Source: Flavobacterium suncheonense GH29-5 = DSM 17707
GTDB taxonomy: Bacteria > Bacteroidota > Bacteroidia > Flavobacteriales > Flavobacteriaceae
Reading direction: 5' to 3'
Length of the DNA: 64,000 bases
Assembly: GCF_000430025.1 (NCBI RefSeq)
Contig: NZ_AUCZ01000004.1
Coordinates: 248,001 to 312,000 of the forward strand
A program made the position numbers and the translations under genes. The notes below the pieces were generated by a model. That model was given only the letters and a program-made list of their open reading frames with translations, did no database searches and was not told the DNA's origin. Position 1 is the first letter of the stretch. Every line of letters starts with the position of its first letter. Shown here piece by piece: positions 7,269 through 32,195 of the stretch.

Positions 7269-7832
7269 TTAAATTTTTTCAACAATTAGCAGGTTATGGT
7301 TTTCAATGCGGATTACTTTTACCACACTTCCGGTTTCGATTTTATCATTTTCGGTTAAAGCCGCTAGTTCATGAATACTGCCGCCCACACTGATTTGCAC
7401 TTTTCCCGTTCCTGATTTTCTTTCCGGAATGGTTAAATACACGGTTCCGGTTTTGTTAATGGTTTTTTCGTAGGTAAACGAGTTGTCTTCGCTCAGTTTC
7501 AGCAATTGTTTGATGATGAAGAAGAAAACGGCCACAAAGAACAATCCGATTAAAATGGCAGCCAGAATTAAAACGGCTTTGTTTTCAATCAGGTTGTACA
7601 AGGAAATGCCGCCCCAGCTGAATCCTAATAAAAAGTTGATTAAGTTTCGGAGGGTGAACAATTCGAACGGCATATCACCGTCGTGGGTTTCGGTCTCAAA
7701 ATCGGTTTCGGTGTCTGCTCCACCCAATCCCATAAAAGTAGCAACGGTTTGGATTAAAAAGAACAGACTTACCGGCAAAGCGATATACCAGAACGCTTTG
7801 AGCAAAGAATCATAATTTTCCAGGAAGGTCAT
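7269..7832 (-). CDS. NfeD-like membrane protein, flotillin partner
   Basis: 187 residues with hydrophobic helices near 14-34, 65-80 and 85-110, then a C-terminal OB-fold-like beta domain (about 125-187, from TGTVYLTIPERKSGTGKVQISVG to VKVIRIENHNLLIVEKI). NfeD proteins without a protease domain pair with flotillins and are thought to help place or regulate them in the membrane. The gene lies directly upstream of flotillin on the same strand, so the two form an operon. The acidic stretch TETDFETETHDGD between helices is unusual but not diagnostic. Confidence 0.85.
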   Translation of the reverse strand: MTFLENYDSLLKAFWYIALPVSLFFLIQTVATFMGLGGADTETDFETETHDGDMPFELFTLRNLINFLLGFSWGGISLYNLIENKAVLILAAILIGLFFVAVFFFIIKQLLKLSEDNSFTYEKTINKTGTVYLTIPERKSGTGKVQISVGGSIHELAALTENDKIETGSVVKVIRIENHNLLIVEKI

Positions 7833-7948
7833 AATTTGGTTGTTTACTGTTTTTACGGAGTATTCTTAAAAAAGTTACAAATTATTTTGAAAATAGTGAC
7901 ACAATTTTCAGGATTTGGAAGCTGATTTTGTGTATGACCTTTACCGTT

Positions 7949-8048
7949 TAGCCCTGATGGGAGCGACATCTTTTTACACCAGACAGGTGTAAAAAATACA
8001 GCGGACAGCAGGAATAGGGAATCCAAAAACGCACTGACCATTCGCTCC
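7949..8048 (+). ncRNA. Candidate structured element, copy 2 (Flavo-1-like or REP-like)
   Basis: In the clpB-nfeD gap the plus strand carries TAGCCCTGAT, AGCGACATC, a perfect 10-bp hairpin (TTTTTACACC, loop AGACA, GGTGTAAAAA; 7971-7995), then ATACAGCGGACAGC. GGAGCG (7960-7965) can pair with CGCTCC (8043-8048). The blocks flanking the hairpin match those of the element at 32084-32168 on the minus strand, while the hairpin itself differs, which is the pattern expected of an RNA family or a mobile palindromic repeat. I did not find a convincing promoter for it. My recollection that Flavobacteria carry a Flavo-1 RNA motif makes that the first model to test. Confidence 0.45.
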
Positions 8049-8055
8049 AAAAAAA

Positions 8056-8089
8056 TACCCGACTGATTCTTTTAAAAACCAGTCGGGTA
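8056..8089 (-). terminator. Terminator of clpB
   Basis: Perfect 10-bp stem TACCCGACTG / CAGTCGGGTA with a 14-base loop; a T run follows on the minus strand. It lies about 35 bases past the clpB stop. Confidence 0.8.
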
Positions 8090-8125: not shown

Positions 8126-10729
8126 TTACTCTTCTTTGTGTGTTTGATTTCTAAAGACTAACTGTCCGTCGAAACTGTCTAACAGGATGATACTGTCTGT
8201 GGTTACTTTTCCGGCAAGAATTTCTTTGGAAAGCTGGTTTAAAACTTCACGCTGAATCACACGTTTTACCGGTCTTGCTCCAAAAGTAGGATCGTATCCT
8301 TTTTCGGATAAGTACGCAATGGCTTCGGGAGTGGCATCCATCGTAATGTGTTGTTGTGCCAGCATTTTGATGACGCTTTTTAACTGTAAACCAACGATTT
8401 CGCGGATGTTTTCGTCTGTTAGCGGCGTGAACATCACGATTTCATCGATACGGTTGATGAATTCCGGACGCACGGTTTGTTTTAGCAAGCCCAACACTTC
8501 TGTTTTGGCTGCTTCGGTAGCCGCTTCGATACCGCCTTTTAAATTTTCGAATTTCTCTTGTATGATGTGACTTCCCATGTTGGAGGTCATGATGATGATC
8601 GTGTTTTTGAAATCCGCCAGACGGCCTTTGTTGTCGGTCAAACGTCCTTCGTCCAAAACCTGTAACAGGATGTTGAAGGTGTCCGGATGCGCTTTTTCGA
8701 TTTCGTCCAAAAGCACTACGGAATACGGTTTTCTTCGCACGGCTTCGGTAAGCTGACCGCCTTCATCATAGCCCACATATCCCGGAGGCGCACCTACTAA
8801 ACGGCTTACGCTGTGACGTTCCTGATATTCGCTCATGTCGATTCGGGTCATCGCGTTTTCATCGTCGAATAAATATTCTGCTAGAGCTTTCGCCAATTCG
8901 GTTTTTCCGACTCCGGTCGTTCCTAAGAACAGGAAGGAACCGATAGGTTTTTTAGCATCCTGTAATCCGGCGCGGCTTCTGCGGACAGCGTCACTGATGG
9001 CCTGAATCGCTTCTTCCTGGCCGACTACTCTGTGGTGCAATTCGTCTTCGAGTTTCAGTAATTTTTCGCGTTCGCTCTGCAGCATTTTGGTTACCGGAAT
9101 TCCAGTCCATTTGGCTACTACTTCGGCGATGTCGTCGTGGGTTACTTCTTCTTTAATCAACGATTTATCCGATTGGTTTTCCTGTAACTGTTTTTGTAAA
9201 CCGTCCAGTTTTTCCTGAGCTTCTTTTATTTTTCCGTAACGGATTTCGGCTACTTTTCCGTAATCACCGTCGCGTTCGGCACGTTCGGCTTCGGCTTTGA
9301 AATCTTCAATTTGCTGTTTTACGTTTTGGATGTTGTCCACCAGATCTTTTTCGGATTTCCAGCGGGTGAAAACTTCGTTGCGCTCTTCTTTTAAGTTCGC
9401 CAAATCTAAACCTAAAATTTTCAGTTTGTTCTCGTCGTTTTCACGTTTAATCGCTTCGATTTCGATTTCCAATTGCATGATTTTACGGTCCAAAACGTCT
9501 AATTCTTCCGGTTTGGAGTTGATTTCCATGCGCAGTTTGGAAGCGGCTTCGTCCATCAAGTCGATAGCTTTGTCCGGTAAGAAACGATTGGTGATGTAAC
9601 GCTGTGACAATTCCACAGCCGCAATAATTGCATCGTCTTTGATGCGCACTTTGTGGTGTGTTTCGTATTTCTCTTTGATACCGCGTAAAATCGAAATCGC
9701 ACTTTCGGTATCGGGTTCATCGATGTTAACTTTCTGGAAACGACGCTCTAAGGCTTTGTCTTTCTCGAAATATTTTTGATACTCGTCTAAAGTGGTGGCA
9801 CCGATGGCTCTTAATTCGCCTCGTGCTAAAGCAGGTTTTAAGATATTGGCTGCATCCATAGCACCTTCGCCACCTCCGGCACCTACCAACGTGTGGATTT
9901 CGTCAATGAAAAGTACGATGTCGCCTTCCGCGGAAGTTACTTCTTTCACTACGGATTTCAAACGCTCTTCGAATTCCCCTTTGTATTTGGCTCCGGCAAT
10001 TAAGGCTCCCATATCCAAAGAGTACACAACTTTGTCTTTCAGGTTTTCCGGAACGTCACCGGCTACGATTCTGTGGGCTAAGCCTTCTGCAATGGCGGTT
10101 TTACCCACACCGGGTTCTCCAATCAGCATCGGGTTGTTTTTAGTTCTTCGGGATAAAATCTGTAGCACGCGGCGGATTTCCTCATCACGGCCAATCACCG
10201 GATCGAGTTTGCCGTCATTGGCCAACTGGTTTAAATTTTTGGCGTATTTGTTTAGTGCATTGTACGTTTCTTCGGCTGAGGCTGAGGTTACGCGTTCTCC
10301 TTTGCGGATTTCGGCAATCGCGGCTTCCAGACCTTTTTCGGTTACGCCTTGGTCTTTTAAAATTTGCGCAACTTTGCTTTTGGATTTAAAAATGGCTAAG
10401 ATTAAATGTTCAATCGAAACGTATTCGTCGTTCATTTTTTTAGCAATGATGTTGGCTTCGTTTAACGCGGTTCCGGCTTCACGGGAAAGCATTAAATCGC
10501 CGCCCGAAACTTTCGGGAAACTCTGAATGGTGCTGTCCAGAATCTGTTTGAACAGGTTTACGTTTACATTCAGTTTTTTTAAGATGAATGGCGCAACGTT
10601 TTCGTCCACCTCTAAAATACCTTTAAAGATGTGTTCGTTTTCCAGCTGTTGCTGGCCGTTACCTTGTGCAATTTGCTGTGCCTGCTGCAAAGCCTCTTGC
10701 GATTTAATAGTTAAATTGTTTAAATTCAT
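8126..10729 (-). CDS. clpB: ATP-dependent disaggregase ClpB
   Basis: Hexameric AAA+ chaperone that, with DnaK, pulls proteins out of aggregates; cytosolic. The 867 residues from MNLNNLTIKSQEALQQAQQ match the family length. Order: ClpN domain (1-150), first ATPase with Walker A GEPGVGKTAIAEG and Walker B VLFIDEIHTLVGAG, coiled-coil middle domain (about 400-530), second ATPase with GTTGVGKTELAKA and VVLLDEIEKAHPD. The open frame continues 101 codons upstream, but that stretch has no family similarity, so I set the start at 10729. The gene is divergent from ytxJ, and the gap carries repeated GACA-N3-TGnn motifs that may be a stress operator. Confidence 0.97.
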   Translation of the reverse strand: MNLNNLTIKSQEALQQAQQIAQGNGQQQLENEHIFKGILEVDENVAPFILKKLNVNVNLFKQILDSTIQSFPKVSGGDLMLSREAGTALNEANIIAKKMNDEYVSIEHLILAIFKSKSKVAQILKDQGVTEKGLEAAIAEIRKGERVTSASAEETYNALNKYAKNLNQLANDGKLDPVIGRDEEIRRVLQILSRRTKNNPMLIGEPGVGKTAIAEGLAHRIVAGDVPENLKDKVVYSLDMGALIAGAKYKGEFEERLKSVVKEVTSAEGDIVLFIDEIHTLVGAGGGEGAMDAANILKPALARGELRAIGATTLDEYQKYFEKDKALERRFQKVNIDEPDTESAISILRGIKEKYETHHKVRIKDDAIIAAVELSQRYITNRFLPDKAIDLMDEAASKLRMEINSKPEELDVLDRKIMQLEIEIEAIKRENDENKLKILGLDLANLKEERNEVFTRWKSEKDLVDNIQNVKQQIEDFKAEAERAERDGDYGKVAEIRYGKIKEAQEKLDGLQKQLQENQSDKSLIKEEVTHDDIAEVVAKWTGIPVTKMLQSEREKLLKLEDELHHRVVGQEEAIQAISDAVRRSRAGLQDAKKPIGSFLFLGTTGVGKTELAKALAEYLFDDENAMTRIDMSEYQERHSVSRLVGAPPGYVGYDEGGQLTEAVRRKPYSVVLLDEIEKAHPDTFNILLQVLDEGRLTDNKGRLADFKNTIIIMTSNMGSHIIQEKFENLKGGIEAATEAAKTEVLGLLKQTVRPEFINRIDEIVMFTPLTDENIREIVGLQLKSVIKMLAQQHITMDATPEAIAYLSEKGYDPTFGARPVKRVIQREVLNQLSKEILAGKVTTDSIILLDSFDGQLVFRNQTHKEE

Positions 10730-10783
10730 ATCGTTAAATGTTGTTTGTCTGTGGTTGTTTTTGTTTAGCTTTGCATTCAAATA

Positions 10784-10866
10784 GACAATTTGTGTTCCAA
10801 GTGCAGAAATCAGGACAAAATGACTGATTTTGGTTGATTTCCCGTATAAAATTAGGACAAAATGTC
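10784..10866. promoter_or_regulatory. Three GACA-N3-TGnn motifs between clpB and ytxJ
   Basis: Three similar boxes: GACAATTTGTG (10784-10794), GACAAAATGAC (10814-10824) and GACAAAATGTC (10856-10866). The last has perfect GACA/TGTC arms. The second and third share a longer direct repeat, AGGACAAAATGnCTGA, 42 bp apart; the first and second are 30 bp apart, so all lie on about the same helix face. The first overlaps a weak -7 element for clpB (TCTATTTG, minus strand, 10778-10785). Inferred to bind a dimeric regulator of clpB, ytxJ or both. Confidence 0.5.
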
Positions 10867-10883
10867 TGAAAACGCGACAAATT

Positions 10884-11273
10884 ATGGGGTTTTTTACTAC
10901 GCTTTTCGGTGAAAATAACAGGAATAAAGAGGAACAGCCAAAGTCCTTTTGGATGTATCTGGAAGAAACGCCGTTGGATGAAATTGAAAAGATTTCTTTT
11001 GAAAAACCTGTGGCTATTTTTAAACACAGCACCCGATGTTCGGTAAGCCGTATGGCCTGGAATCAATTCGCGAAGCAGTTTGATATCGAATTTGAGAAGA
11101 TGGAACTTTATTTTCTTGATTTGCTGGCATACCGTTCCTTATCCAATGAAGTGGCCGAACGATTTGGCGTGGTGCATCAGTCGCCGCAACTCATTGTAAT
11201 TAAAAATGGTAAGGCGGTTTATGACGCTTCCCACAGTGCTATCGATGCAGAGGATTTGAAAAACTATCTTTAA
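10884..11273 (+). CDS. ytxJ: Bacillithiol-system redox protein YtxJ-like
   Basis: 129-residue thioredoxin-fold protein with a single conserved cysteine (Cys52 in FKHSTRCSVSRMAW), where classical thioredoxins have CxxC. The motif and the ending (QSPQLIVIKNGKAVYDASHSAI) fit the YtxJ family, a proposed monothiol bacilliredoxin. Flavobacteria make bacillithiol, so a role in removing bacillithiol from oxidised proteins is likely but inferred. I set the start at the ATG at 10884 (MGFFTTLFGENN); an upstream in-frame GTG would run through the repeated GACA boxes. One base separates it from the Crp-like gene. Confidence 0.85.
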   Translation: MGFFTTLFGENNRNKEEQPKSFWMYLEETPLDEIEKISFEKPVAIFKHSTRCSVSRMAWNQFAKQFDIEFEKMELYFLDLLAYRSLSNEVAERFGVVHQSPQLIVIKNGKAVYDASHSAIDAEDLKNYL

Positions 11274-29823: not shown

Positions 29824-31695
29824 TTAGGCTTTTTTGTTTTTTAAATCAGCTTTTGCTTTTTCGAGTTCGGCTTTGGCTTTTTCCATTTCGGCTTTGGCTT
29901 TCATCATTTCTTCTTTTGCCTTCATCATTTCTTCTCGCGCACTTTCCATTTCCGGTTGTGCTTCTCTCATTCGAATCTTAGCTCTTTCCATTTCCGGACG
30001 CATTTCTTCCCTATGCTTTCTTGCTTTTTCCATGTGGATTTTTGCTCCATCCATTGCCTCTTTTCTGATTTTTTCGATTTCTTTTCTCGAAATCACCATG
30101 TTGCCGTCTTCATCTTTTAAAATGAAATCTTTTGGACCTTTTTCGCCTTTTGGTCCTTTAGTGTCGAAGGAGAACGTAAAAGCTTTTTCCATGTCTTTAA
30201 AATCCATGTCGCCCAACATATCTTCGCTTACTTTTTCGCCGTTAATCCAAACTTCTTTTTTACCGTCTTTCTCTTTTACAACGATACTTTTTTTCATTGT
30301 TCTTGGAGTTTTTGGAGGTTTTGGCGCACCTGGAACGCCTTCTGTTTCGGGTGTTTCCGGAACTTCGGGAACATCAAAGTCGAAGTCAAAATCGTCGGCC
30401 CAAACGAAAGCATCATCGTCACCATCTATGATAACACTCATCTCTTCACTGTCGTCGTTTAAGTGTTTGAAGGCTTTGATTTTTGCCAAACCTTCTCTCG
30501 GTCCTCTTTCTTTCGGAGCGCCAAAACCAATGGCTCCCTTGCCGTTTTCGTCCATTTCTTTGAAGAAACGAATCGGCTGGATTGGAGCATCACCGGAGAC
30601 CTGAGTTGTTCCTTTTTGGCCGTCTTTGTCTTTAAAATCCACTTTAACAGCGGTAATTTCTCCTTTGCTGTTTCGTTTGATTTTGGAAACTTTCAAGGTA
30701 ACACCGAATTCGTTTTTAAGCATTTCGATGTTTTTTTTAATGGCTGCATCCGATGAATTTTTGTCGATAACCACGGAAACAACTTTTTTGTTTTGCGTTC
30801 TGCTTTCCACTTTCGGAGCAGATTTTTCCTGAGCCAGCACTTTAGTCTGAAACTGGAACATGAATAAGGCCAGTAAAGGCAATACTGCGAAATACTTCCA
30901 CGAGTTTTTCTTGTCGGATTGATTTCTGTTTAACATAACAATTCGTTTTTTGATTAATGATTGATAAAAAGGATTGGTGATTGCAATGCACTGCGACTGC
31001 ATTGTTACTTTTAATAAAGTTTTCTGATAACTTTTTACGTCTTCGATGTTTTTGGTAGCTTCCGCATCGGCAATGAATTCAAGGTTTTGCGCAATGGCTT
31101 TTTTGTACAGCCATACAATCGGGTTGAACCAGAATGCGATGCAGAAAATCTGGGCGATCATCATGTCCCAGGAATGTTTCTGGGCGCTGTGAACCTGTTC
31201 GTGCTGTAAAATATTCTCCAGTTCGTCTTCTTTTAAAACCGAAGAATTGTACACGATGTAATTAAAGAAAGAGAACGGTGATTGTACTTTATCCGTATCC
31301 ACGAAATAGAAATCATTGCGTTTGATGGCTTTTGGATTTTTCAGCAATTGTTTAACGGCAAAACAGTCCACCAAGAACTTCAGCAGGAAAACCGCAATTC
31401 CGATGCCGTACAACACCGCAGCCACCATAAGCCAGTTAATCTCAAAACCCGATTCTTCCGCCGGAACGTAAGCAGTAAGCGGAATATCCGAATACTCATA
31501 AACCGACGCCGGATCTACCCAAATCACTTTCGTGTACGTAATGAACGGCAAAACCATCGAGGTGACTAACCCGGCCAGCAAAAACCAACGGTTCGAATTG
31601 AAAAACGTTTCTTTTCGAAGAAATACAAAGTAAGCGAGATAGAAAACTCCCATCAGGGCACTTACTTTAAGCAGATAAATTCCAAAAGCTTCCAT
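29824..31695 (-). CDS. BlaR1-like M56 family membrane metallopeptidase
   Basis: 623-residue regulatory protease. Four N-terminal membrane helices (about 5-25, 35-55, 88-110 and 270-285) enclose the zinc peptidase domain with HEQVH (His165, His169) and a third ligand in LEFIADAEA. In BlaR1/MecR1 such a domain cleaves the BlaI repressor. The C-terminal half is not a penicillin-binding sensor: it contains charged and strand-rich segments (KSIVVKEKDGKKEVWINGEKVSEDM) and ends in a Met/Lys/Glu/Ala coiled coil of 7-residue repeats (EEMMKAK, AEMEKAK, AELEKAK). The signal is therefore probably not a beta-lactam bound to a PBP domain. Five bases downstream of blaI. Confidence 0.88.
   Translation of the reverse strand: MEAFGIYLLKVSALMGVFYLAYFVFLRKETFFNSNRWFLLAGLVTSMVLPFITYTKVIWVDPASVYEYSDIPLTAYVPAEESGFEINWLMVAAVLYGIGIAVFLLKFLVDCFAVKQLLKNPKAIKRNDFYFVDTDKVQSPFSFFNYIVYNSSVLKEDELENILQHEQVHSAQKHSWDMMIAQIFCIAFWFNPIVWLYKKAIAQNLEFIADAEATKNIEDVKSYQKTLLKVTMQSQCIAITNPFYQSLIKKRIVMLNRNQSDKKNSWKYFAVLPLLALFMFQFQTKVLAQEKSAPKVESRTQNKKVVSVVIDKNSSDAAIKKNIEMLKNEFGVTLKVSKIKRNSKGEITAVKVDFKDKDGQKGTTQVSGDAPIQPIRFFKEMDENGKGAIGFGAPKERGPREGLAKIKAFKHLNDDSEEMSVIIDGDDDAFVWADDFDFDFDVPEVPETPETEGVPGAPKPPKTPRTMKKSIVVKEKDGKKEVWINGEKVSEDMLGDMDFKDMEKAFTFSFDTKGPKGEKGPKDFILKDEDGNMVISRKEIEKIRKEAMDGAKIHMEKARKHREEMRPEMERAKIRMREAQPEMESAREEMMKAKEEMMKAKAEMEKAKAELEKAKADLKNKKA
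29830..30050 (-). repeat. Imperfect 21-bp repeats encoding a 7-residue coiled coil
   Basis: The end of the M56 gene repeats units translating to (E/K)-M-M-K-A-K-x and variants such as AEMEKAK, AELEKAK and AKADLKN, preceded by EMERAKIRMREAQPEMES. The DNA units are near copies and could change number by slippage. Confidence 0.7.
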
Positions 31696-31700
31696 AGGCT

Positions 31701-32060
31701 TTATTTTTTCTGTTCAATCATTTCTAAAATTTCGCGTAATTCTTTAGCGCTGATTTTTTCTTCTTTCGCAAAAAAGGAAACCATGCTTTTATAGGAGTTA
31801 TTGAAATAATTTTCAATGGCAGTATTCATAAAACCTTTACGGTAATCTTCCTTCGATACAATAGGGTAGTACTGGTGCGTGTTCCCGAAGGCATTGTGCC
31901 CCACATAGCCTTTTTCTTCCAAGTTGCGGATAATCGTAGAAAGCGTGTTGTAATGCGGCTGATCTTCCGTGATTTCAGCCAAAACCTCTTTTACGAACGC
32001 TTTTTGCAGCTTCCATAAAATGTGCATTACTTCTTCTTCTTTGTTGGTTAACTTTTGCAT
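31701..32060 (-). CDS. BlaI/MecI/CopY family transcriptional repressor
   Basis: 119-residue repressor with the winged helix in residues 1-75 (LTNKEEEVMHILWKLQKAFVKEVLAEI, YNTLSTIIRNLEEKGYV) and a dimerisation tail (about 80-119). The family is inactivated by an M56 protease, encoded 5 bases downstream. Upstream on the minus strand are a promoter and two dyads with the ACTA-N6-TAGT core of the staphylococcal mec/bla operators, so autoregulation is likely. The transcript should start about 130 bases before the ATG and carry the structured element at 32084-32168. Confidence 0.93.
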   Translation of the reverse strand: MQKLTNKEEEVMHILWKLQKAFVKEVLAEITEDQPHYNTLSTIIRNLEEKGYVGHNAFGNTHQYYPIVSKEDYRKGFMNTAIENYFNNSYKSMVSFFAKEEKISAKELREILEMIEQKK

Positions 32061-32083: not shown

Positions 32084-32168
32084 GGGCGTTACCACAAGGG
32101 TCGGGCTATCCGCTGTATCTTTTGCTGCACTTCGTTTCACAAAAGGATGCCGCTGCTATCCCTAACGC
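32084..32168 (-). ncRNA. Candidate structured leader element, copy 1 (Flavo-1-like or REP-like)
   Basis: Read on the minus strand: closing arms GCGTTA / TAACGC, then AGCAGCGGCATCC, a stem CTTTTG / CAAAAG around a 15-base loop, and ATACAGCGGATAGCCCGACC. The blocks AGCGrCATCyTTTT and AAAArATACAGCGGAyAGC also occur in the element at 7949-8048, with a different hairpin between them. The promoter predicted at 32196-32226 would place the whole element in the blaI leader, ending 23 bases before the start codon. It could be a structured RNA or a REP-like repeat inserted in the leader. Confidence 0.5.
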
Positions 32169-32195
32169 AAATTCGGCTTTCATTCAAGCACAAAA

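Follow-up and report, generated by a model that had tools for sequence, protein, structure and literature searches.

Flavo-1 (RF01705) appears in a table of Weinberg et al. 2010 (PMC2864571), and a review (PMC9029176) places it among the most abundant small-RNA families, its function field being empty. The passage on Flavo-1 in a transcriptome study of F. psychrophilum (PMC9723704) reports hits sense or antisense of 5' transcribed regions, with many outside them, and yields no clue to function; it speaks against a discrete transcript from a Flavo-1 copy. A survey of REP elements (PMC12306157) includes two Flavobacterium genomes, and its main text contains neither "RAYT" nor "Rfam". Among the titles and opening lines of abstracts in the open-licence literature on Flavo-1 or on intergenic palindromic repeats of Flavobacterium, none explains Flavo-1. 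The segment described here, from a 64,000-nucleotide stretch of Flavobacterium suncheonense DNA (the window), is a new copy of this already known family.

Two Flavo-1 copies in the window

A cmscan search of the window against Rfam returned two Flavo-1 matches, both above the curated threshold, and one tRNA. Membership of RF01705 is defined by a covariance-model score of at least the gathering threshold, 42 bits. Both copies exceed it, as the original prediction of a dispersed family, perhaps Flavo-1, had anticipated. The features of copy 1 and its surroundings are as follows.

7922 to 8048, plus strand: whole Flavo-1 element (copy 1), consisting of left arm, core and right arm; left end approximate, right end GCTCC at 8044-8048
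7946 to 8019, plus strand: Flavo-1 core as defined by Rfam RF01705; 61.7 bits against the cut-off of 42
7953 to 8012, plus strand: outer and middle stems; structure counted over 48 and 103 copies, with which the copy's own fold agrees
7971 to 7995, plus strand: variable apical hairpin, a perfect 10 bp in this copy, from sequence and fold
8049 to 8089, minus strand: presumed clpB intrinsic terminator, from sequence; A-tract (8049-8055) and inverted repeat (8056-8065/8080-8089)
8126 to 11032, minus strand: clpB with Pfam ClpB domains, longest open frame, the true start probably lying further in
7269 to 7832, minus strand: left neighbour, encoding a 187-aa protein without a Pfam match at E 0.001 and adjoining a flotillin/SPFH gene

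The core of copy 1 matches its family with E-values of 4.8e-11 in the window search and 5.1e-13 in the genome search. Sequence homology with two other genomes, G227 and G159, begins at 7922-7923, and the right-end motif recurs in other copies as ...TTCGCTCC or ..GCTCC. Bases 7953-7956 pair with 8009-8012, 7958-7959 with 8006-8007 and 7963-7964 with 8001-8002, with a 3x3 internal loop formed by 7960-7962 and 8003-8005. The apical hairpin, whose perfect 10 bp had already been noted, pairs 7971-7980 with 7986-7995 around the loop AGACA. The 67-nt core folds at -20.9 kcal/mol, with a z-score of -4.45 against shuffled sequences. The presumed clpB terminator abuts the right end of the element and lies outside it, a layout that is the same in G159, G227 and G320. 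The setting first described, a gap between clpB and nfeD, holds for clpB through its Pfam domains; the name nfeD is given by context only, and among named records the 187-aa protein comes closest to two from Flavobacterium, at 69% identity.

Copy 2 belongs to a second subtype, and its surroundings are listed below.

32084 to 32168, minus strand: copy 2 of Flavo-1, of the subtype whose outer arms are GCGTTAGGG...GGTAACGCCC; 47.6 bits, Rfam core 32095-32173
31701 to 32060, minus strand: gene for a BlaI/MecI-type repressor (PF03965)
29824 to 31695: BlaR1-type M56 gene (Pfam), after the BlaI-type repressor gene

This copy (E 3.6e-7 in the window search) sits in sense orientation in the gap ahead of the start of the BlaI-type gene, and has same-site counterparts in G159, G227 and G320. 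Taken alone, it folds no better than its own shuffles (z -0.01), and its case therefore rests on homology.

The two copies share the conserved blocks from which they were originally recognised: AGCGACATCTTTTT and AAAAAATACAGCGGACAGC lie within 7962-8009 on the plus strand, and AGCGGCATCCTTTT and AAAAGATACAGCGGATAGC in the minus-strand copy. The 10-mer ATACAGCGGA is indeed identical at 7996-8005 (plus) and 32109-32118 (minus), and the hairpins of the two copies are, as noted at the outset, unrelated. The 10-mer is a poor probe, occurring at 21 places in the genome, 11 inside Rfam matches and 10 outside. Nine of the outside places were read (all except C23:4795); they have no partner block and look coding by eye, and none is an element.

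Family size and distribution

The F. suncheonense genome (G000; 2.88 Mb in 54 contigs) holds 42 matches to the Rfam model at E <= 0.001 among the 150 of 748 candidates scored, 31 of them above the cut-off. A covariance model of our own, built from 48 copies (alignment A1), finds 48 matches among 150 scored candidates, so that the proposed dispersed family is far from a mere pair. One copy may have been counted twice, since the first 808 bases of contigs C10 and C11, each start holding a Flavo-1 copy, are identical. Most copies escaped a regular-expression finder, which was abandoned.

With the same model and 150 candidates scored in each genome, there were 118 matches in G127, 51 in G159, 71 in G227, 76 in G320, 29 in G342 and 69 in G033. 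Flavo-1 was present in 96 of 149 sampled genomes of the family (up to 29 candidates scored in each), in 28 of 198 of the phylum (at most 22 scored) and in 0 of 14 control genomes. This distribution agrees with the occurrence in Bacteroidetes that characterises RF01705. Two queries against plasmids and one against phages gave no Flavo-1 match.

Anatomy of the element

Copies were aligned on the invariant AGCCC. Conserved letters extend past the Rfam model on both sides: information rises about 28 nt upstream (35 copies), marking a left arm, and a right arm reaches GCTCC, with long and short forms occurring. The outer stem of the core, read by eye, consists of CCNG/CNGG and two further pairs; inward of it lie a 3x3 loop, GNA/GGA, and two pairs, GY/RC. 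Many copies have a second, mirror-image 3x3 loop, GGA/GNA, which is absent in some, for example in the clpB-site copies of several genomes. The apical hairpin varies from a triloop to a long hairpin, and triloop copies as short as 51 nt exist. Neither pairing between left and right arms nor, in the listed copies, inverted ends of the kind that marks MITEs of DDE transposases were seen by eye.

Many copies (L010-L015 and L129-L152) have in common an apical module, TGAGGCTCTCGAA or a variant of it. A nested REP in the apical loop was considered and rejected: in hairpin form the module, TGAG(N)3-7TCGAA, occurs once outside and twice inside Flavo-1 in 733 kb of five genomes, and so looks like a feature of a Flavo-1 subfamily, not an independent repeat. 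In one further copy (L175:5782-5864, G227) the 5' outer stem contains an additional palindrome, CGATAGCTATCG.

Inheritance, gain, loss and possible exchange of copies

Our model found 22 matches at E <= 1 in 733,630 bases of five genomes, and the 19 below 1e-4 were compared by their flanks. An orthologous interval exists in another genome for 13 of these 19, at five sites designated A to E. Sites B (clpB) and C (blaI) are each common to G000, G159, G227 and G320. Site A, the location of the copy with the extra palindrome, is occupied in G159, G227, G320 and the more distant G342 and empty in G000, which is most simply read as a loss in G000. At site E G320 has a copy, for which no counterpart turned up at the orthologous position in G000, G159, G227 or G342; a gain in G320 would be the simplest reading of this pattern, in a region of messy flanks that lie 1.4 kb apart in G159 and G227. 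Site D has a copy in G227 and none in G159 or G000, with poorly aligned flanks. No clean insertion junction with a target-site duplication was found among the sites compared.

The clpB site was examined in 70 of the 198 genomes of the genus with a match, G000 among them (the 30 best matches plus 40 others of high rank). Flavo-1 lies in the stretch read in 16 of the 70. In 15 of these the distance to the clpB match is at most about 0.25 kb and the orientation is always the same; in L214 the copy is some 0.5 kb off, and L201 carries another copy at a greater distance. The clpB-side copy is thus an old, inherited copy next to the presumed clpB terminator.

Stems at orthologous sites change as pairs. 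The 20 scorable comparisons (of 39 listed), which are not independent because some sites recur, leave 138 stem pairs unchanged and show double Watson-Crick changes in 17, single changes in 3 and other changes in 2. Between L009 and L124 one outer pair has changed on both sides with the hairpin identical. In the comparison L009/L145, and also at sites B and C, the apical hairpin is wholly different between some genomes. At site C (32084-32168 of the window and its orthologues) the copies of G000 and G227 group together by apical module, as do those of G159 and G320, in contradiction to the flanks, which make G227 and G320 the closest pair; this hints at exchange between copies. An apparent flip of orientation (L048/L133) was rejected, as two different copies around trxA had been compared. 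Some sites have kept their copies by inheritance, others have gained or lost them, and the stems co-vary between orthologues.

Gene context

A crude call of open reading frames around the 42 copies gave 14 arrangements of the type "< <", 9 "< >", 8 "> >" and 7 "> <", with one side uncalled in 4. Four copies (L009, L022, L027, L043) overlap a called frame; these were read as over-extended starts, and intergenic position is thus shown for 38 of the 42. The copies show no overall bias with respect to replication, 82 of 164 lying on either strand in six complete genomes, a test that used 164 of 420 matches (25 of 29 in G342), assumed the origin at dnaA and took three genome lengths as rounded. G315 is an exception: its best-fit arc (permutation p 0.003) fails to line up with dnaA. 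Nine 258-aa open frames in genome G297 share the same weak Bac_DnaA score; we take them to be perhaps IstB-like genes of an IS21-type expansion.

The gene trxA is flanked by two Flavo-1 copies of opposite orientation in G000 (layout of L119:1996-2652 and L133:939-1599), and likewise in G159. G297 (L236) has one copy upstream of trxA and its second copy one gene further on.

Another reading would make the hairpin a cis-acting terminator or mRNA-end structure that works together with a neighbouring intrinsic terminator. In 40 of 65 copies with a GCTCC end (72 inspected) AAAA follows within 9 nt, against a rate of 8.8% at positions farther downstream, in a comparison made with a loosely defined end motif and a background that is partly coding; several copies also abut terminator-like hairpins. 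Such a role is improbable, given the nine copies that lie between divergent genes and the A-tract at clpB, which is part of the presumed opposite-strand terminator.

Covariation and pair types

The covariation of the stems was counted in two alignments, one fitted to the model and so favouring structure (A2, 103 copies) and one made freely by MAFFT (A1). In A2, 97.6% of 1409 cells are in standard pairs, against 81.2% when shuffled and at most 50% when slid. Both sides have changed in 251 of the 1409 cells against 68.1 in shuffles, so that the consensus structure and the compensatory changes of Flavo-1 are both present, and the covariation score is 0.414 against 0.136 shuffled and at most 0.096 slid. 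A1 gives the same picture, with 96.8% paired, 140 double-change cells and a score of 0.437. Four of five covariation measures exceed the shuffles; the exception is the number of further pair types, 25 against 23.5 in A2 (140 of 500 shuffles as high) and 20 against 21.3 in A1 (476 of 500 at least as high). The significant cmscan match and this strong covariation leave the original assignment standing, as does the genome-wide count.

Pair 10-132 is CG in 57 copies, TA in 33, GC in 9, AT in 3 and TT in 1, with neither G-T nor A-C; pair 14-128 is GC in 48, AT in 34 and TA in 21, with no others. The 1417 stem cells contain 5 G-T, 7 A-C and 27 other mismatches, and these nearly equal counts of G-T and A-C give no sign of selection on the sense RNA alone. 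Among 252 pairs of twelve distinct tRNAs from the fetched DNA, 23 are G-T and none is A-C (10 G-T in 126 in a smaller count of six tRNAs). The low G-T content of Flavo-1 relative to tRNAs is suggestive and not proof, because the control is small and concerns another kind of RNA. In the energy-folded apical hairpins G-T accounts for 50 of 1021 sense-strand pairs and for 35 of 1022 pairs on the opposite strand, which indicates no strong strand preference there.

The Rfam label of the family is "Gene; sRNA". Under this label Flavo-1 would be a functional structured RNA, transcribed alone or within untranslated regions, in which a putative protein on the 3x3 loops alters the stability or expression of the neighbouring mRNA. 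Strong covariation, conserved non-canonical loops and double changes at orthologous sites all fit such an RNA, as do the sense copy just ahead of blaI in four genomes and, in the published passage on F. psychrophilum, the several 5' transcribed regions that coincide with Flavo-1 (PMC9723704). The copies, however, occur in every orientation relative to genes, their G-T content (5 of 1417 against 23 of 252 in tRNAs) is low, and the same passage describes hits on either strand and many beyond transcribed regions (PMC9723704). A structured RNA is possible but somewhat doubtful, and the copy beside clpB probably does not constitute a small-RNA gene by itself.

The scarcity of G-T pairs is what would be expected if Flavo-1 were recognised as DNA, as a single strand or a cruciform, since neither strand would then tolerate them. 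Flavo-1 would be a widespread REP-like system without a RAYT and not an sRNA, its hairpin recognised by a mobilising or maintenance protein of its own, as yet putative, and its hairpin modules exchanged between copies. This reading is held tentatively, and we regard it as rather doubtful. If Flavo-1 is a hairpin repeat at the DNA level, many "sRNA" annotations in Bacteroidota are misleading and there is a mobilising or hairpin-binding protein still to be found. As a simple test, a near absence of G-U pairs could be looked for in other orphan Rfam families; this feature of Flavo-1 and its lack of a Y1 helper are the two results most likely to interest specialists.

A search for a mobilising enzyme

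The genome of F. suncheonense has one Y1 gene, of 184 aa, at G000:C3:32945. The Flavo-1 copies could be REP elements proper, moved by this RAYT-type transposase, a link that the original prediction had offered as a check only. Co-occurrence in the family sample lies above expectation (both present in 48 genomes, Flavo-1 only in 48, Y1 only in 11, neither in 42; odds ratio 3.8, p 0.0005), an association that could reflect a shared load of mobile elements or a since-lost helper. A Y1 gene accompanies Flavo-1 in G000 but not throughout the Flavo-1 family: Y1 hits are absent in 17 of 33 family genomes with at least 10 Flavo-1 hits, and G159 (51 copies) and G320 (76 copies) carry their many copies without one, so that a Y1 transposase is not needed. 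Nor do copies flank the transposase gene, as Flavo-1 lies within the fetched 1.5 kb on either side of only 1 of 23 Y1 loci, against 1.3 predicted from copy density. The Y1 gene of G000 has other inverted repeats at its boundaries and no Flavo-1 in the 3.2 kb fetched. The RAYT link is therefore unsupported, and movement of Flavo-1 by this enzyme is very unlikely.

The repeats that bound this Y1 gene (L039:1396-1950, outside the window) contain CCCGATAGCGCGGATTTGCAATCCGTGCCC. The first letters of this sequence resemble the outer stem of Flavo-1 by eye, and the Flavo-1 model does not match it. In Rfam the locus has weak hits only, none better than E 0.15.

We looked for an autonomous form of Flavo-1 among the open reading frames of 14 of 18 stretches between or around neighbouring copies (all except L242-L244 and L247) and of the trxA stretch, and rejected the idea. 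Of 30 proteins between or beside close copies, 27 match ordinary cellular families in Pfam, none of them a transposase, and 3 have no match. Neither the Y1 survey nor this Pfam scan found a mobilising enzyme for Flavo-1.

The reading that we favour, at about even confidence, is that Flavo-1 copies are non-autonomous, REP-like mobile repeats whose folded strand is recognised by a putative factor acting in trans, with the copies kept folded. We infer their REP-like mobility. The factor would recognise a folded single strand, of DNA or RNA, and resident copies may stay folded through selection or through exchange between copies. Against this REP-like reading, many copies are old, which active REPs are not; an RNA function would explain the in-place compensatory changes and the conserved internal loops equally well; and plasmids and phages, where mobile DNA might be expected, gave no match.

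Comparison with known systems

A comparison of the copies described here with the Rfam model of Flavo-1 (RF01705) shows the same stems and 3-nt loops, and both copies of the window score over its full 76 positions. They differ in being longer by a left and a right arm, and the family also includes the 51-nt triloop form and the form with GCGTTAGGG/GGTAACGCCC arms.

Two other systems share part of this design. Like integron attC sites, Flavo-1 conserves its stems as pairs over letters and has unpaired spacers and a terminal structure of variable length; unlike them, it has no attC core sites by eye and its copies do not lie in arrays. REP and BIME elements with their RAYTs are, like Flavo-1, short, intergenic and palindromic, present in tens to more than 100 copies, apparently non-autonomous and found in all gene contexts. 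Flavo-1 differs from them in showing neither dependence on a Y1 transposase nor linkage to one, in its conserved internal loops, and in the retention of its copies at orthologous sites across species.
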